From: Aequorivita todarodis | Lineage (GTDB): Bacteria > Bacteroidota > Bacteroidia > Flavobacteriales > Flavobacteriaceae | Assembly (NCBI RefSeq): GCF_028561335.1 | Contig: NZ_JAQQTG010000002.1 | Coordinates: forward strand, 1-64,000 | Direction of reading: 5' to 3' | Length of the DNA: 64,000 nucleotides | Shown here: piece after piece, positions 4,995-64,000 of the stretch | Position numbering within the stretch: position 1 is the stretch's first letter | Layout of the letters: the number at the start of each line of letters is the position of its first letter | Position numbers and translations under genes: made by a program | The notes under the pieces: generated by a model | Database searches by the model: none | Seen by the model: the letters and a program-made list of their open reading frames with translations, nothing else | Told to the model about the DNA's origin: nothing

Positions 4995-5939
4995 ATGCAC
5001 TATTTAAGTTTTACCTGGAATCCTTCCGAAGGAATTGACCTTGGTTTTTTTATGATCCGTTATTACAGCTTGATGTTTGTGGTAGCGTTTACCTTGGGAT
5101 GGATCTTAACCAAAAAGATTTTTGAGCGCGAAGGGCAACCGCAGGAAAAACTGGACAGCCTTTTCATTTATATGGTCGTAGCTGTATTGGTCGGCGCACG
5201 TTTGGGGCACGTTATTTTTTATCAACCCGAGCTTTTTGTGGACGATCCGCTATCGGTCTTTCTGCCAATACAAACCGTTCCCGAATTTGAATTTACGGGA
5301 TTTCAAGGTTTGGCAAGCCACGGGGCGGCAATCGCTATTTTGATCGCGATGTATTTTTATACAAAAAACGTAATCAAAAAACCTTTTCTTTGGATTATGG
5401 ACCGCATCGTAATTGCCGTTGCCGCCGGAGGAATTTTTGTACGAATCGGAAATTTTATGAATTCTGAAATTATCGGGAAACCTTCGGGCGATTTTCCGCT
5501 GGGCGTTCGTTTTGTGCACGAAGGCATCCGTAAGCAAGATGCCGTACAGGCCACGGGAATTCAAAATCCGGGCAAGGCTTATGATGCGATTGTACACAAC
5601 CCTCAATTTTCCGAATTGCTGAATTCCGTTCCTTTTCGGCATCCGGCACAGCTTTATGAAGCAGCGGGCTATGTGATTGTATTTTTGGTATGCTGGTATC
5701 TCTACTGGAAAACCGAACGCAGAAAGCAGATCGGCTATATTTTCGGGGTGTTTTTGATCCTTCTTTTTACCGTCCGTTTTTTGGTGGAATACGTAAAAGA
5801 AAGCCAAGGTGGATTTGAGTCGGCACTCGGTTTGCTTTCCACGGGGCAATGGCTCAGTATTCCTTTCATAATCGCAGGGATTTATATTATGTGGAAAGCT
5901 TCAAAAAAAAAGCCCCTAACCCCTGAGGGGGAAATTTAA
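4995..5939 (+). CDS. lgt: Prolipoprotein diacylglyceryl transferase
   Basis: Transfers the diacylglyceryl group to the lipobox cysteine of pre-lipoproteins in the inner membrane. 314 residues with about seven hydrophobic segments, the Lgt signature around RIGNFMNSEIIG (near residue 150), and HPAQLYEA (from residue 215). The last residues, KKKPLTPEGEI, are encoded by a copy of the CCCCTAACCCC...GGGG intergenic repeat that has been read into the gene, so the native C-terminus probably ended just before it. The stop codon overlaps the upstream end of the DUF192 open frame. Confidence 0.97.
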   Translation: MHYLSFTWNPSEGIDLGFFMIRYYSLMFVVAFTLGWILTKKIFEREGQPQEKLDSLFIYMVVAVLVGARLGHVIFYQPELFVDDPLSVFLPIQTVPEFEFTGFQGLASHGAAIAILIAMYFYTKNVIKKPFLWIMDRIVIAVAAGGIFVRIGNFMNSEIIGKPSGDFPLGVRFVHEGIRKQDAVQATGIQNPGKAYDAIVHNPQFSELLNSVPFRHPAQLYEAAGYVIVFLVCWYLYWKTERRKQIGYIFGVFLILLFTVRFLVEYVKESQGGFESALGLLSTGQWLSIPFIIAGIYIMWKASKKKPLTPEGEI

Positions 5940-17033: not shown

Positions 17034-17096
17034 AAGACGTAAGACCGCTTCGCTTTAAGACCTGCCTGTCGTGCCTTGGCAGGCAGGCGTAAGACT
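17034..17096. repeat. GTAAGAC repeat with nested CCTGCCTG/CAGGCAGG palindrome
   Basis: GACGTAAGACC and GCGTAAGAC units flank a 27-bp GC-rich palindrome (17062-17088) with arms CCTGCCTG and CAGGCAGG and a TCGTGCC-containing loop. Nearly the same palindrome occurs at 24527-24554, and shorter versions lie inside the FIST gene at 62874-62894 and 63919-63939. Confidence 0.75.
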
Positions 17097-17125: not shown

Positions 17126-17140
17126 GTTTTTCAATGAAAA

Positions 17141-17173
17141 AAACCTCACAGGTCTTCGAGACCTGTGAGGTTT
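17141..17173. terminator. Terminator hairpin between nrdJ and mdh
   Basis: A perfect 15-bp stem, AAACCTCACAGGTCT / AGACCTGTGAGGTTT, with a TCG loop and A/T-rich flanks on both sides. It can terminate mdh transcription from the minus strand and also read-through from nrdJ. Confidence 0.9.
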
Positions 17174-17197
17174 ATTTATACTACTTCAATTTTGGAA

Positions 17198-24510: not shown

Positions 24511-24680
24511 AATTCCAAATAAAAAACCTGCCTGTCGTGCCTCTGGCAGGCAGGTTCCAAATTCCAAAATTTCATCCTTAATAAATCCCGAACTCAAAAT
24601 CAAGACGAAAAAGACCCATAAACCCACTAAACTTAATAACCAAATAACTTTTTAACTCAATAACTTAATAACCCAGTAAC
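24511..24680. repeat. Composite intergenic repeat: CCAAAT, GC palindrome and TTAATAAC array
   Basis: Three families are stacked in one 187-bp gap. TTCCAAAT text at 24511-24575 is interrupted at 24527-24554 by a 28-bp palindrome (arms CCTGCCTG / CAGGCAGG, loop TCGTGCCTCTGG). TTCCAAATTCC resumes right after it, as if the palindrome had inserted into the array. A TTAATAAC/CTCAATAAC octamer array follows at 24631-24680. Confidence 0.75.
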
Positions 24681-57833: not shown

Positions 57834-59135
57834 ATGATTCAAAAAGAGGAAGGTTTAAAAAGAAGGGTTGGCGTATTTGGCTTATCGGCTAATATCGTCA
57901 ACATCATCATCGGGTCCGGTATTTTTGTGCTGCCTGCAATTGTAGCCAGTTATATGGGAGCATCCAGCATCATTGCGTATCTGTTTTGCGGACTTTTAAT
58001 GGCAATGGTAATGCTTTGCTTTGCCGAAGCTGGAAGTAAAGTTACAAACACCGGGGGGCCTTACACCTACATAGAAACCGCTTTTGGAAATTACGCTGGC
58101 TTTGTAGCTGGTTTTTTTGCCGTTGGAAGCAACTTGTTTGCAGATGCCGCAGTTTCAAATGCGTTAGTAAATGTAGTCGCTTCAGCATACCCAATATTTG
58201 AAACCGGATGGCCCCGTTTTTTGTTTTTATTTATTCTTTTTTATGGTTTGGTTTACGTCAATGTAATTGGGTTAAAGCAAGGCATAGGCTTGGTGAAATT
58301 CAATGCAATTGTAAAGCTAATACCATTGCTTTTACTAATTACTATTGGCTTTAAAGATGTATCGGTAAGCAATCTGTATTTTCAAAATATGCCAAGTCTC
58401 AAAACATTGGGTGAAACCTCGCTTATTTTATTTTTTGCTTTTCAGGGTTGTGAAACGGGAATTATTGTTGGCGGGGAAGTTGTCAACCCAAAACGAACAA
58501 TTCCGAGGGCTATCTTAATAAGTATTACAACTGTTGCGGTTGTTTATATCTTGATTCAAACCGTTTCACAAGGTGTTTTAGGGGATGCTTTACCAAATTT
58601 TACAGCGGCTCCACTCGCAGAAACCGCTAAAGTAGTTTTTGGCAATTTTGGATATTTACTTTTAATTATTGGCGCCGTTATATCTATGTTTGGGTACATG
58701 AGCGGCACTATCCTTAACAGTCCAAGGATTGTTTACGCACTTTCAAGAGATAATGTAATCCCGATAAAAGCACTTTCCAAAATTCACAAATCTTATGCTA
58801 CGCCATACATAGCCATTATTATTTATGCAACCATTGGCTTTATGCTGGCTGTTTCCGGCAGTTTTGAGCAATTGGCAGTCATTGCCAGTAGTTCTATGCT
58901 CATTCTTTATTTAGGCGTAGCACTATCTGTAATGAAGCTGCGTAATTCTAAAAAAGAATATTCCGGCGGATTTAAAATTCCAGGAGGTTGGGCAGTTCCC
59001 ATAATAGCAATTGCTATAATTCTATACTTTTTATCAAGTCTTTCAGCAAATGAAATGATTGGTACGGGAATATTTATAGGTTCATTAACGCTTATTTTTT
59101 TCGCTATTAAATTTCTAAAAAAGAAAGTGGTATGA
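57834..59135 (+). CDS. APC-superfamily amino-acid permease, paralog of 51634
   Basis: 433 residues from MIQKEEGLKRRVG; a GTG at 57804 lies inside the upstream repeat and is a less likely start. TM1 LSANIVNIIIGSGIFVLPAIVA, the ITNTGG-like VTNTGGPYTYIETAFG loop, and GYMSGTILNSPRI before TM9 are nearly the same as in the permease at 51634. Its stop overlaps the next gene by 4 bp (ATGA). Substrate unknown. Confidence 0.92.
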   Translation: MIQKEEGLKRRVGVFGLSANIVNIIIGSGIFVLPAIVASYMGASSIIAYLFCGLLMAMVMLCFAEAGSKVTNTGGPYTYIETAFGNYAGFVAGFFAVGSNLFADAAVSNALVNVVASAYPIFETGWPRFLFLFILFYGLVYVNVIGLKQGIGLVKFNAIVKLIPLLLLITIGFKDVSVSNLYFQNMPSLKTLGETSLILFFAFQGCETGIIVGGEVVNPKRTIPRAILISITTVAVVYILIQTVSQGVLGDALPNFTAAPLAETAKVVFGNFGYLLLIIGAVISMFGYMSGTILNSPRIVYALSRDNVIPIKALSKIHKSYATPYIAIIIYATIGFMLAVSGSFEQLAVIASSSMLILYLGVALSVMKLRNSKKEYSGGFKIPGGWAVPIIAIAIILYFLSSLSANEMIGTGIFIGSLTLIFFAIKFLKKKVV

Positions 59136-59944
59136 TAAAACTCTTTAGAAACATTCGAAGAAACCTTCTCGCTGAGGGCAAGACTTCAAAATATCTTAAA
59201 TATGCCATTGGCGAAATAATCCTTGTGGTCATCGGTATTTTAATTGCCTTGAGCATCAACAACTGGAATTCCAACCGTATTGAACGTCATAAGGAATCTG
59301 TGTATCTATCAAATATTCAACGCGATTTGAAAGAACAGTTCAAATCCATCGAGCAACAAATGGGTTTCGAATTTGAAATTAACAAAGCTGCGAAACCGAT
59401 TATTATTTACTATAAAGCACATCACGAATTTAAGGTGGACAGTACCTTTACAGCCAGCATTGGCAAATTAAGCGCACGTATAACTTTTGTAAAAAACAAC
59501 CCAACTTATATTGAACTGCTATCGTCGGGCAATATCGATATTATTAGTAATGATGGCTTTAAAAACGAGTTGATAAAATATTACCAAGAAATGGAACGTA
59601 TTGAAAAAGTTATCAATAAAAACAACAATCTTTTTACCGATGCTGTATTTGTTCCCGAAATGCTAAAATTGACTGAGATTCAATCGACCGACCTTTATAA
59701 AAGAAAAATGTTTCAAGATCTCTTATCTGATATACCTGCCGAAATTTCAACTGATATCGTGAGCCTAAATGAAGCTAATTTAGAAGCCATTACTCGGTCG
59801 AATTTGCAAATTCCCGAGAAACAACTTTTAATGATTAATGCGATAAATTTCAGATATCAATTGGCAATTCTTCATTATAGGTATCTGAATAAACAAAAAA
59901 TAAAAACCCAAGAATTGCTGGACAAATTGAAGACAGAGGATTAA
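59132..59944 (+). CDS. DUF6090-family membrane protein
   Basis: 270 residues, Bacteroidota-restricted. N-terminal signature RNIRRNLLAEGKTSKYLKYA, then IGEIILVVIGILIALSINNWN, one membrane anchor, followed by a helical domain of about 220 residues that is probably outside the membrane. Function unknown; family members are usually scattered single genes. Here it is translationally coupled (4-bp overlap) to the permease at 57834, which suggests a shared role or regulation. Confidence 0.88.
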   Translation: MIKLFRNIRRNLLAEGKTSKYLKYAIGEIILVVIGILIALSINNWNSNRIERHKESVYLSNIQRDLKEQFKSIEQQMGFEFEINKAAKPIIIYYKAHHEFKVDSTFTASIGKLSARITFVKNNPTYIELLSSGNIDIISNDGFKNELIKYYQEMERIEKVINKNNNLFTDAVFVPEMLKLTEIQSTDLYKRKMFQDLLSDIPAEISTDIVSLNEANLEAITRSNLQIPEKQLLMINAINFRYQLAILHYRYLNKQKIKTQELLDKLKTED

Positions 59945-60186: not shown

Positions 60187-61326
60187 ATGAACGCAAAATC
60201 CATCAAAGGAAAATCAGTCGCAGAAATCAAGGCGGCGCTGGAGAAAGCCACAGAAAACGGTTTCAAGCCTACCCTGGCAATCTGTTTTATTTCAAAAAGC
60301 CTGGACAGAATGGCCATTTGCAAACTATTGGACGAAAGGAGCATTAGCGTGTTTGGCTGCACCACCAATGGCGAATTTATAGATGAAGTTTCTGAGAAAG
60401 CATCGGCAGCCATTTTACTACTCGATATGGACAAAGAATATTTTCAACTTTATTTTGAAGAATATCCCAATGAAAATTATCGTGAGGTTGCCAGGGGAAT
60501 TGCCCAAAAGGCAAAAGCAAGCTTTAAAGAGCCAGCTTTTTTAATTGGCATCAGCAATGCCGCGGCCGATGGCGAAGAAATCCTCCGCGGTATCGAGGAG
60601 GTTGCCGGCCCAGAGGTAAATGCCTTTGGCGGTGCCGCCGGCGACGACTACGCCTTTACCGAAACCTATGTTTTTACCAATGGAAAGGACAGCGGCAATG
60701 CCATGGTGTGCCTCGCCCTGGATGAGGAAAAGGTTGAAGTGCAAGGTATCGCCACTTGTGGCTGGAAAGCCGTGGGCACCGTAAAAACGGTTACCAAGAG
60801 CGAGGGCAACCACGTTTATACCGTAGATAATATGCCCGTATTGGATCTTACCGCAAAATATGGCGGCATTGAAAATGCAAGTCCACAAAACAATAATCTC
60901 CTCATTGAGATTGCCGCAAATTTCCCCTTGCAACTGCAGCGTGAAAAAGGCGATCCGGTAATGCGGCCCGGCCTGGTGGTAGATTGGGAAGACCGTTCCT
61001 ATTACACCAGCGGTTCGGTGCCAGAAGGCTCAAAAGTACGGTTTTCCCTTCCCCCGGATTTTGACGTGATGGACAAAGTGGTAAAAGGGGTAGCGAATCT
61101 AAAAGCGACAAAAATGCCGGAAGCAGACGCTTTGGTGGTGTTCAGTTGTGCGGGCAGAATCTTATCGCTTGGCCCTTTAATGGCCGACGAGCTTGAAGGC
61201 ATCAAGAATGTCTGGAACGTCCCCATGGCCGGAATGTTCAGCAATGCGGAACTGGGAAGAGCAACGGGCGGAAATCTGGAAATGCACAACCTGACCACTT
61301 GTTGTGTGGCTTTGAAGGAAAAGTGA
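60187..61326 (+). CDS. FIST-domain sensory protein, first of three
   Basis: 379 residues. FIST_N: KPTLAICFISKSLDRMAI, then VFGCTTNGEFID (the conserved cysteine/threonine loop), AILLLDMDKEYF. FIST_C: GIATCGWKAVGTVKTVTKSEGN, SGSVPEGSKVRFSLPP, ALVVFSCAGRILSLG and GMFSNAELG. FIST proteins are intracellular small-molecule sensors, often of amino acids, usually linked to signalling proteins. It lies 240 bp downstream of the DUF6090 gene and is followed by a TTATTGAG array. Paralogs follow at 61497 and 62801. Confidence 0.9.
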   Translation: MNAKSIKGKSVAEIKAALEKATENGFKPTLAICFISKSLDRMAICKLLDERSISVFGCTTNGEFIDEVSEKASAAILLLDMDKEYFQLYFEEYPNENYREVARGIAQKAKASFKEPAFLIGISNAAADGEEILRGIEEVAGPEVNAFGGAAGDDYAFTETYVFTNGKDSGNAMVCLALDEEKVEVQGIATCGWKAVGTVKTVTKSEGNHVYTVDNMPVLDLTAKYGGIENASPQNNNLLIEIAANFPLQLQREKGDPVMRPGLVVDWEDRSYYTSGSVPEGSKVRFSLPPDFDVMDKVVKGVANLKATKMPEADALVVFSCAGRILSLGPLMADELEGIKNVWNVPMAGMFSNAELGRATGGNLEMHNLTTCCVALKEK

Positions 61327-61496: not shown

Positions 61497-62666
61497 ATGC
61501 AAGCAAAAACCATAAAAGGACATTCCATTGAAGCTATAAAATCAGCTTTCTCTGAAAGCATATCGGATAACTTCAAACCCACCTTGGCCATCGTTTTCCT
61601 GTCCATAAAACAGGACTGGGAGACCGTCTGCAAAATATTTGAAGATCCAAAAATTGCCATCTTTGGCGCCACCACTTCGGGAGAATTCATTGATGGCGAC
61701 ATTGAAGAAGGAAGCATAACCGTAATGTTGCTCGATATAAATCCAGATTATTTCACACTAAAATTCTTTGAAACCGGTGAAAAGTCCACTTTTGAAAATG
61801 CGAAGCAACTGGGCGCAGAAGGCAAAAATACCTTTAAAAACCCTGCATTTCTCATCGTCACAGGATGGTTGACCGAAGAAGGTGAAAATATCGTAGAAGG
61901 TATTACGGCAGGTTTTGGCATGCCTGCCCCGTCGAAGGACGGGGTGACGATTTTCGGTGGGATGGCCGGCGACGACCTTTCCCTCAGTGGCCCGATGGTT
62001 TTTACAAAAGACAAGAGTAGCGACAAAGGACTTTTGGCACTCATTATTGACGAAGATAAGATTGAAATAAATGGCATTGCAACCTGTGGGTGGAAAGCCA
62101 TTGGCACTACCAAAACCATTACCAAAAGCAAAGGGAATATCGTTTACACCATTGATGATAAACCTGCTTTGGATATGATAATAAAATACCTTGGGGTAGA
62201 TTATAATTTTAGTACGGGAAATGAAATAGTTACCCAAATCGGCGCGTATTACCCATTGCAAATGGAACGTGAAGGCGTGGCCCCAGTAATGCGCACCGCA
62301 ATGCTCGCAAACCGGGAAGACCGCTCGCTCATCTGCGCCGGCAACGTGCCACAAGGCTCCAAGGTCAAGTTTTCACTTCCACCGGATTTTGATGCCATTG
62401 AAACGGTTATAGAAGAATGCAACGAGTTAAAGCAGGAGCATCAACAAGAGGCTGATGCGCTCATCATGTTTTCATGTATCAGCAGACATTTGTCCTTCGG
62501 CATCTTAATGAGCGAAGAAATAAGTCAGGTAAAGCAGGTCTGGGATGCCCCCATGGTAGGCTTCTTCACTTATGGCGAATTCGGAAAATCGAAAACCGGG
62601 AAGCATGAGTTCCATAACAATACCTGCTGCGTAGTGGCCTTAAAGGAAAAATACAATGGTTACTGA
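61497..62666 (+). CDS. FIST-domain sensory protein, second of three
   Basis: 389 residues, start MQAKTIKGHSIEAIKSA. FIST_N: KPTLAIVFLSIKQDWETVC, IFGATTSGEFIDGDIEEGSITVMLLD. FIST_C: NGIATCGWKAIGTTKTITKSKGN, AGNVPQGSKVKFSLPPDFDAIE, ALIMFSCISRHLSFG. It contains an 18-bp perfect palindrome CCCCGTC-GAAG-GACGGGG (61927-61944) in a variable loop. The last residues (YNGY) and the stop codon are part of a TTATTGAG repeat, unlike the first copy. Closely related to the third copy. Confidence 0.92.
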   Translation: MQAKTIKGHSIEAIKSAFSESISDNFKPTLAIVFLSIKQDWETVCKIFEDPKIAIFGATTSGEFIDGDIEEGSITVMLLDINPDYFTLKFFETGEKSTFENAKQLGAEGKNTFKNPAFLIVTGWLTEEGENIVEGITAGFGMPAPSKDGVTIFGGMAGDDLSLSGPMVFTKDKSSDKGLLALIIDEDKIEINGIATCGWKAIGTTKTITKSKGNIVYTIDDKPALDMIIKYLGVDYNFSTGNEIVTQIGAYYPLQMEREGVAPVMRTAMLANREDRSLICAGNVPQGSKVKFSLPPDFDAIETVIEECNELKQEHQQEADALIMFSCISRHLSFGILMSEEISQVKQVWDAPMVGFFTYGEFGKSKTGKHEFHNNTCCVVALKEKYNGY

Positions 62667-62800: not shown

Positions 62801-64000
62801 ATGCAAGCAAAGACCATAAAAGCAAATTCCACCGAGGAAATCAAAAAAGCGTTTCAGCATAGCATAGCGGACGCCTGCCGGACGGACGGGCAGGGCTTCA
62901 AACCTACCTTGGCCATTATCTTTCTGTCCATAAAACAGGATCGGGAGGCGGTATGCAAACTATTTGAAGATGCCAATATTGCCATCTTCGGCGCAACAAC
63001 CGCGGGTGAATTTATAGACGGCGACATCGAGGAAGGAAGCATCACAGTGATGATGATGGATATGCCCCAGGCGTATTTCAAAATTGAATTTCTTGAAACT
63101 ACCTTGGAAACGACCTTTCAGGATGCCAAAAATTTGGGCGCCATTGGAAAGAAAACCTTTCCCAATCCGGCGTTTATTATAGCCACTGGAGGAATATTTA
63201 TCGACGGGGAACAAATCATTGATGGCATTATTGAAGGTTTTGGAAAACCTGCCAATTCTAACGGCGAAGTAACTATTTTCGGAGGAATGGCGGGAGACGA
63301 TCTGGTAGCCGAAAAACCACTTGTTTTTACCAACGGGAAAAGTAAGGACAACGCCTTACTGTCCCTCATCATTGACGCCGACAAAATTGATGTTAGGGGA
63401 ATTGCAAGTTGTGGCTGGAAGGCTATTGGCACTTCAAAAACGGTTACCAAAAGCGAAGGCAATATTGTTTATACCATAGACGACAAACCGGCTTTGGATA
63501 TGTTAATGAAATACCTGGGCGTGGAGATAAAGCAGGAAGACAACAAAAACATAGCACCATTCCTGAATTCCTGGTATTACCCCTTGCAGGTAGAACGCGA
63601 CAATGGCGATACCGTGATACGTGCTACCCGTTTTGCCAATAGCGAGGACCGCTCGCTTATCTGTACCGGCGGGGTGCCCCAAGGGGCAAAAATCAAGTTT
63701 TCCCTGCCCCCGGATTTTGATGCTATCGAAACAGTCGTTTCAGAATGTGAGAGCATTAAGGACAACGCCCAGCAACAAGCCGACGCCCTGATTATGTTTT
63801 CGTGCGTGAGCAGACATTTGTCGTTTGGAGCTTTGATGAAAGAAGAGATAGAACAGGTAAAAAATATATGGAACGCCCCTTTGGTCGGCTTTTTCACCTA
63901 CGGCGAATATGGAAAATCCCTGTCTGCCGTACAGGCAGGAAAAATCGGCACTAATGAATTTCATAACAACGCCTGTTGTGTGGTGGCACTAAAGGAAAAG
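62801..64000 (+). CDS. FIST-domain sensory protein, third of three, cut by the window end
   Basis: 400 codons are present up to the window edge (MQAKTIKANSTEEIKKA ... VVALKEK); by comparison with the other two copies, the stop codon should follow almost at once. FIST_N and FIST_C motifs as in the second copy (IFGATTAGEFIDGDIEEGS, GIASCGWKAIGTSKTVTKSEGN, GGVPQGAKIKFSLPPDFDAIE). Relative to it there are two small in-frame insertions, about 7-8 residues near residue 25 (ACRTDGQ) and 7 residues near 372 (LSAVQAG), each encoded by a palindrome of the CCTGCC/GGCAGG family. Confidence 0.92.
   Translation, partial: MQAKTIKANSTEEIKKAFQHSIADACRTDGQGFKPTLAIIFLSIKQDREAVCKLFEDANIAIFGATTAGEFIDGDIEEGSITVMMMDMPQAYFKIEFLETTLETTFQDAKNLGAIGKKTFPNPAFIIATGGIFIDGEQIIDGIIEGFGKPANSNGEVTIFGGMAGDDLVAEKPLVFTNGKSKDNALLSLIIDADKIDVRGIASCGWKAIGTSKTVTKSEGNIVYTIDDKPALDMLMKYLGVEIKQEDNKNIAPFLNSWYYPLQVERDNGDTVIRATRFANSEDRSLICTGGVPQGAKIKFSLPPDFDAIETVVSECESIKDNAQQQADALIMFSCVSRHLSFGALMKEEIEQVKNIWNAPLVGFFTYGEYGKSLSAVQAGKIGTNEFHNNACCVVALKEK
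62874..62894. repeat. In-frame CCTGCC / GGCAGG palindrome in the third FIST gene
   Basis: Arms CCTGCC (62874-62879) and GGCAGG (62889-62894), loop GGACGGACG. Codons of the insertion read A-C-R-T-D-G-Q; the first and second FIST genes lack it. Confidence 0.75.
63919..63939. repeat. In-frame CCTGTCTG / CAGGCAGG palindrome near the end of the third FIST gene
   Basis: Arms CCTGTCTG (63919-63926) and CAGGCAGG (63932-63939), one G-T pair, loop CCGTA. It is 21 bp long; the encoded L-S-A-V-Q-A-G has no counterpart in the second FIST gene, where KS continues directly into KTGKHE. Confidence 0.75.

Follow-up and report, generated by a model that had tools for sequence, protein, structure and literature searches.

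The window analysed here, 64,000 nucleotides of the Aequorivita todarodis genome (positions 1 to 64,000 of contig NZ_JAQQTG010000002.1), ends inside the third of three FIST genes, whose product contains two short peptides encoded by palindromic DNA. This raises the question whether such palindromes are copies of a small element that enters genes as well as gaps, and how the proteins accommodate it. The features concerned are the following.

60187..61326, + strand: first FIST gene, a paralogue with both insert sites empty
61497..62666, + strand: second FIST gene, likewise a paralogue with both insert sites empty
62801..64000, + strand, frame continuing beyond the window: third FIST gene (FIST3) with FIST N and FIST C domains (Pfam PF08495, 2.9e-28; PF10442, 4.1e-24)
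62874..62894, no strand assigned: insert 1, the 21-bp palindrome CCTGCCGGACGGACGGGCAGG, adding the seven residues ACRTDGQ (residues 25-31)
63919..63939, no strand assigned: insert 2, the 21-bp palindrome CCTGTCTGCCGTACAGGCAGG, adding the seven residues LSAVQAG (residues 374-380)
17061..17087, no strand assigned: intergenic 27-bp relative of the element, sharing its arms with the FIST3 inserts
24527..24554, no strand assigned: intergenic 28-bp relative; this form is listed repeatedly at other places of the genome

An earlier sequence-only reading of this DNA had described two peptide insertions of 7-8 and 7 residues in FIST3, each encoded by a palindrome. Both insertions and both palindromes are present, and the second was correctly measured at exactly 21 bp, but the comparison with orthologues gives exactly seven codons for each of the two. 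The intergenic palindromes had been assigned to the same family, which holds for the common arms, although they represent longer forms of 27 bp and 28 bp, and the first of them had been placed at 17062-17088, one base off its true span. The case for an insertion of the 24527 copy into an existing array is weak, as this copy is flanked by AATTCCAAA-type stretches but no array was reported by Tandem Repeats Finder.

Recent insertion had been tied to the peptides being absent from orthologues and to the existence of empty sites, and both were found. In the alignment, all 16 named orthologues lack insert 1, and 14 of the 15 that are readable at site 2 lack insert 2, Aequorivita lipolytica being among those with empty sites. 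L034, which is frameshifted further on, is readable at site 1 and was not counted for site 2, and L039, equal to L020 in sequence, was counted once. The sole occupied orthologue at site 2 is L030 from a distant Bacteroidota MAG, which carries its own palindrome at the same codon: CCTGCCTGTCCGGCAGGCAGG and a further 21 bp lie between the same two codons and differ in sequence from the insert of the window. The FIST3 gene of the same-genus genome G020 is identical to that of Aequorivita lipolytica at 1161 of 1161 bases.

As single-stranded DNA, inserts 1 and 2 fold better than shuffled sequences (z of -2.9 and -2.7). A structure of FIST3 was modelled from 19 sequences (mean pLDDT 73, pTM 0.77). 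In this model insert 1 lies in the loop 24-36, preceded by the helix 11-23 and followed by the strand 37-43, and insert 2 is placed with low confidence (pLDDT <50) between the strands 369-372 and 391-399, so that both inserts are predicted to fall between secondary structure elements.

The FIST3 frame, completed with L038, stops after 411 codons at 64034-64036. It passes the usual KEK end and reads APSSSPKGENK before the stop (64001-64036; L038 2701-2736); this extension is encoded by a second palindrome of the CCCC/GGGG type, and further palindromes follow downstream. In the second FIST gene a CCCCGTC/GACGGGG palindrome at 61920-61950 lies within a length-variable loop and is a candidate insert only.

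The pattern CCTGCC-N0-30-GGCAGG was found three times in the window, where 0.04 matches were expected. The genome-wide search for such elements, which had been proposed as a check, yielded 77 matches in 3.33 Mb and 2 for the reversed control pattern; nested matches at one site are scored separately in the count of 77, whose positions are only partly listed. The 21-bp pattern with 8+5+8 bases is matched in the genome of the window by the two FIST3 inserts only, and this genome also contains other 21-bp variants of the family. With a stricter pattern, 15 of 28 genomes of the genus were positive (0 to 39 matches each) and the control was zero in all 28. Among 198 Bacteroidota genomes the pattern occurs in 89, many of them with 1 or 2 matches, and for some genomes the control count is as high or higher (e.g., G166, 3 against 12); outside copy-rich genomes the counts are near noise.

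The main forms of the palindrome are the perfect 20-mer CCTGCCTGCCGGCAGGCAGG, 21-mers, 19-mers and 27-29-mers. The 21-mers, such as CCCGCCTGCCGGACGGGCAGG and CCTGCCTGCCGGCAAGGCAGG, correspond to the 20-mer with one extra middle base and some substitutions, and one identical 21-mer was found again in unrelated genes and species. With GTAG/CGTC REPs the family shares a stem-loop of 20-40 bp that is present in many copies. Ordinary local indels or chance GC-rich loops, with no repeat family behind them, would agree with the observation that loop lengths elsewhere in the FIST protein also differ among orthologues. This explanation is regarded as refuted by the genome-wide and genus-wide counts and is further contradicted by the recurrence of the identical 21-mer, and it is given practically no credence.

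In G081 (L325, L326), about a dozen 20-mers were seen within 32 kb, mostly inside a larger conserved intergenic repeat, with neighbouring genes that resemble glycan genes. This palindrome-rich region was considered as a possible cassette array and set aside; most of its palindromes belong to the larger intergenic repeats.

Pfam searches with palindrome-bearing ORFs identified chorismate synthase, a MenC-type enolase, thiamine monophosphate synthase, a PLP enzyme, an HI0933-like flavoprotein, a 2-oxoacid dehydrogenase E2, a CoaBC-like flavoprotein, TonB receptors, NamZ, a topoisomerase and others. When 12 genic segments were searched in the genus, 11 showed an empty site in relatives with an insertion of seven codons every time, whereas for the twelfth, L136, its own genome stood alone among the matches listed. 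The inserted stretch equals the 21-nt element in the alignments of 11 further genes, in which no target site duplication of the kind that defines MITEs was seen by eye. In the genus the palindrome thus occupies gaps as well as genes, as the earlier reading had supposed, and within conserved genes it is in frame.

G012 and G025 each have a single chorismate synthase match, and its frame is intact. Solved structures are consistent with the insertions: the best match of chorismate synthase is five residues shorter at the insert. For the PLP enzyme, a probable serine racemase, the best solved-structure match leaves a gap of seven residues at this position. Beyond the genus, in-frame 21-mers are present in two ORFs, one with 792 codons (G122) and the other with 348 codons (G171); the latter by appearance resembles uroporphyrinogen decarboxylase. 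Four proteins of three genomes (L063 in G072, L066 and L074 in G061, L067 in G063) also have in-frame palindromes in their N-termini, and these proteins are called DUF6090-like by resemblance to the DUF6090 protein of the window.

The DUF6090 protein of the window is encoded at 59132-59944 beside the FIST genes. In the DUF6090-like N-termini of L067 and L074 the palindrome is located between K and YLKYA. In L062 and L167, from Altibacter lentus and an Aequorivita genome, similar proteins share a putative LPAGEAG insert close to the C-terminus. Near position 1488 of L156 and 1538 of L144, a 21-mer lies inside another palindrome of the CCTCCGTAGC...GAGGAGG type, and in L156 the nested palindromes are themselves in frame within an E2 gene.

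The length of the copies differs between genes and gaps. Among units found without regard to length, 31 20-mers and 17 21-mers are intergenic, and 0 and 11, respectively, are genic (p = 7.7e-5). The proposed check for multiples of three, applied to all lengths, gave 11/13 genic against 17/59 intergenic units (p = 3e-4). It had been argued that in-frame lengths leave the proteins intact, and as regards the frame this is borne out: genic inserts keep the frame because the genic form has 21 nt, and the 20-nt form is absent from all 13 units called genic. Three of the 11 genic 21-mers were assigned by hand (L112, L136, FIST site 1), and L091 and L111 represent one site in two genomes. Without the hand-assigned units the 20/21 test stands at 8:0 (p = 7.6e-4), with L091/L111 counted once at 10:0 (p = 1.6e-4), and with both restrictions at 7:0 (p = 1.7e-3). 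The test leaves out 10 ambiguous units near a gene start or in ORFs of 120-200 aa, three of them 20-mers, as well as FIST site 2, in which one arm is one base off the pattern. The remaining two of the 13 genic units, with 17 and 22 bp, are not multiples of three, and their status as insertions is only putative. Under a looser unit definition multiples of three make up 13/17 genic and 26/79 intergenic units (p = 0.002); in our judgement some of the misfits are loose matches.

None of seven variants tested contains a stop codon in any of the six frames, a property shared by 20 percent of 21-mers sampled from the window. All three codon phases occur among 16 insert sites, yet they are skewed, with forward copies in phase 2 in 10/12 cases and reverse copies in phase 0 in 4/4, and this skew leads to linker-like peptides, e.g., PPAGRAG, LPAGKAG, and PARPAGG. 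The phase bias may reflect selection on the peptide or may be a by-product of the target.

These lengths and frames also bear on the fate of the insert in gene expression. Mitochondrial bypass elements resemble such GC-rich hairpins inside conserved genes, and the insert could accordingly be removed or skipped after transcription, as a mini-intron or by ribosome bypass, giving a protein without it. However, a spliced or bypassed insert would be free of the need for a length divisible by three, so the length selection, like the stop-free frames, suggests that the ribosome reads the insert and that the peptide is translated. Removal or bypass is considered very improbable.

With empty and filled sites, insertions of exactly seven codons, a length bias and a recurring family observed, the inserts are quite probably copies of a non-autonomous mobile hairpin, a REP/RPE-like mini-element of Aequorivita and some other Bacteroidota. 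Such a hairpin would spread without target duplication and its copies would land in genes and gaps alike. They would be filtered by purifying selection, so that the copies surviving in genes would nearly all be of the 21-nt form, whose length is divisible by three and which is stop-free in six frames, and would be translated into a seven-residue loop peptide. The original suggestion of a mobile mini-element tolerated in proteins is thereby supported; the scattered presence of the palindrome and its empty sites point to copies that move rather than arise otherwise.

For 7 of 11 genes the identical base is occupied in at least two genomes of the genus, in a comparison whose genomes were picked for high copy number and not randomly. 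Some of these sites may have been hit independently more than once. Alternatively, the shared sites were filled once in an ancestor and emptied by precise excision in other lineages, and no same-site targeting would be needed. A single gain requires 8 losses for the TonB1 receptor (28 genomes) and 7 for Vps10 (20), two each for AroC (11 genomes) and GT4 (4), one each for HI0933 and TonB2 (6 each) and none for the sulfotransferase (7). These counts include only genomes in which the site was read, and they use the midpoint-rooted TonB1 gene tree in place of a species tree. Counting unread genomes as empty had given more losses (AroC 4, HI0933 4, TonB2 4, sulfotransferase 2); the lower numbers on read genomes weaken the case for independent insertion and strengthen that for old inserts.

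In the alignment of all 28 genomes, the TonB1 site is filled only in G000 and G012, which stand in separate parts of the gene tree, and it is empty in G017 and G022, the nearest to G000 in this tree; this speaks against an old insert. In a ten-gene tree, unlike the TonB1 gene tree, G012 groups with G000 and G016, and one loss in G016 would then be enough for TonB1 among those few genomes. At Vps10, G000 and G022 have one mutated insert in common, which is consistent with descent; the rows of G017 and G003, identical in the stretch shown, perhaps represent another gene copy. The shared sulfotransferase inserts differ at 4/21 bases, as old copies might. Over all seven shared pairs, in contrast, the inserts differ at 8/147 bases and the 120-bp flanks at 170/840 (p = 2.5e-6), with 2-8 differing positions in the nearest 21 bp on either side. 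Inserts that are less diverged than their flanks are the reverse of what old neutral inserts would show, and they also argue against a recent transfer of the segment. FIST site 2, filled with different sequences in the genome of the window and in the distant MAG, likewise disfavours ancestry.

The trees favour independent gains clearly at two of the seven sites (TonB1 and Vps10) and hardly elsewhere. Taken overall and together with L030 at FIST site 2, independent insertion fits best, each single site being unproven, and ancestral filling with later excision keeps a real but minor chance. We therefore suggest only tentatively, with a confidence somewhat below even, that different species have acquired a translated 21-nt hairpin at identical nucleotides of the same genes through repeated, independent insertions. 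The site specificity of the enzyme would then be greater than its weak sequence preference accounts for, and the same seven-residue loop would have been gained in parallel in TonB receptors, FIST, chorismate synthase and others.

The preference of the target is indeed weak: of 31 sites, 27 have a purine at -1, and positions +2 and +3 are each A or T in 29; in this table L062/L167 look orthologous and L144/L156 share a second palindrome around the site. Such a preference leaves same-site insertion unexplained. Since Y1 enzymes act on hairpins without target duplication, the palindrome could be the cognate substrate of a resident REP-associated tyrosine transposase (RAYT). A total of 26 Y1_Tnp loci were found, four in G000 and 22 in 8 of 10 other genomes. 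The Y1_Tnp gene of G000 C7 (5320-5565) is the only one of the 26 to have CCTGCC palindromes on both sides, at 5005 and at 5751. However, as judged by eye, a 19-bp palindrome at C7 is present in two copies of a larger repeat and missing from a third, which speaks for insertion, and the CCTGCC palindromes are apparently nested in this other repeat. Around the 22 further loci no CCTGCC hairpin was found within up to 1.5 kb on each side by a scan for perfect 7-bp arms, which misses degenerate copies, and many of the other Y1_Tnp loci have different palindromes nearby. In G019, which is 87 percent complete, the palindrome is matched 12 times and Y1_Tnp not at all. Within 6 nt of the stem and reading towards it, the REP tags GTAG and CGTC were found in 2/73 and 0/73 units. 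With one flanked and apparently nested locus in G000 and the 10 genomes searched, a Y1_Tnp/RAYT protein as cognate mobiliser was rejected as unsupported, and a resident RAYT is held to be unlikely. Mobilisation by single-stranded hairpin transposition, with a Y1 HUH transposase acting in trans, is judged the likeliest mechanism, although it is itself rather doubtful.

A contig of G012 with palindromes near one end and inside (L135) was considered as an autonomous element and discarded, as its ORFs of at least 80 aa by eye resemble a two-component system and include no transposase. A different 27-bp palindrome, CCTCACAGGTCT...AGACCTGTGAGG, is present in the window at 17131-17180 and around the L019 Y1_Tnp match, which contains two stops; it is likely a REP of the L019 RAYT.

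The inserts offer a natural experiment in protein tolerance, in which much the same seven-residue peptide is found in many conserved enzymes. Sister species provide the filled and the empty version for comparison, the genomes themselves contain a control element that is shorter by one base, and the entry of selfish hairpins into coding sequence becomes testable. Same-site insertion, if true, would point to targeted mobilisation by a hitherto unrecognised system in one of the major bacterial phyla.

Several known systems resemble the element in part. In REPIN/RAYT systems, short hairpin DNA is spread that has no gene of its own, which is the likeness to the Aequorivita element; unlike there, the same palindrome flanks both sides of only 1/26 Y1 loci, apparently nested. 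Rickettsia palindromic elements (RPE) and their Wolbachia equivalents are likewise palindromic repeats found in gaps and in frame in conserved genes. The passages available from two sources describe RPE of 105-146 bp with 12-bp terminal repeats (PMC2229807) and of about 150 bp (PMC10969869). The Aequorivita element, with 21 bp, falls outside a class of about 100-150 bp with a long stem-loop; it occurs in Bacteroidota, has a sister form of 20 bp that stays out of genes, and at some sites occupies the same base in two genomes.

GTAG/CGTC REPs are described, in the part of the source available, as palindromes of 20-40 bp, mostly intergenic and some within ORFs, with carriers of CGTC REPs including Bacteroidetes, and in recB of two Xanthomonas species REPs were found at about the same site (PMC3733652). 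As far as this description goes, the short, mostly intergenic and partly intragenic palindromes of Aequorivita are alike, but they are without the defining end tag, which when read away from the stem occurs in 1 (GTAG) and 0 (CGTC) of 84 units with duplicates kept. Among the matches listed from the open-licence PMC literature, none concerned in-frame palindromic elements in Bacteroidota, which is no proof of absence from print, and of the element strings only the DNA string CCTGCCTGCC and none of four peptide strings appeared.

For Correia/NEMIS elements, the available passage reports forms of 107 and 155 bp, one in genes and the other almost only intergenic, sorted by stop codons (PMC2229807). 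Two related lengths, one genic and one almost only intergenic, are also seen here, but both Aequorivita forms lack stops and are sorted by their length modulo three. To the extent that these sources describe them, RPE, Correia elements and intragenic REPs provide precedent for the Aequorivita element, which differs from them in its size, its lineage, the absence of the tag, the sorting of 20 and 21 nt and the occupancy of the same base.
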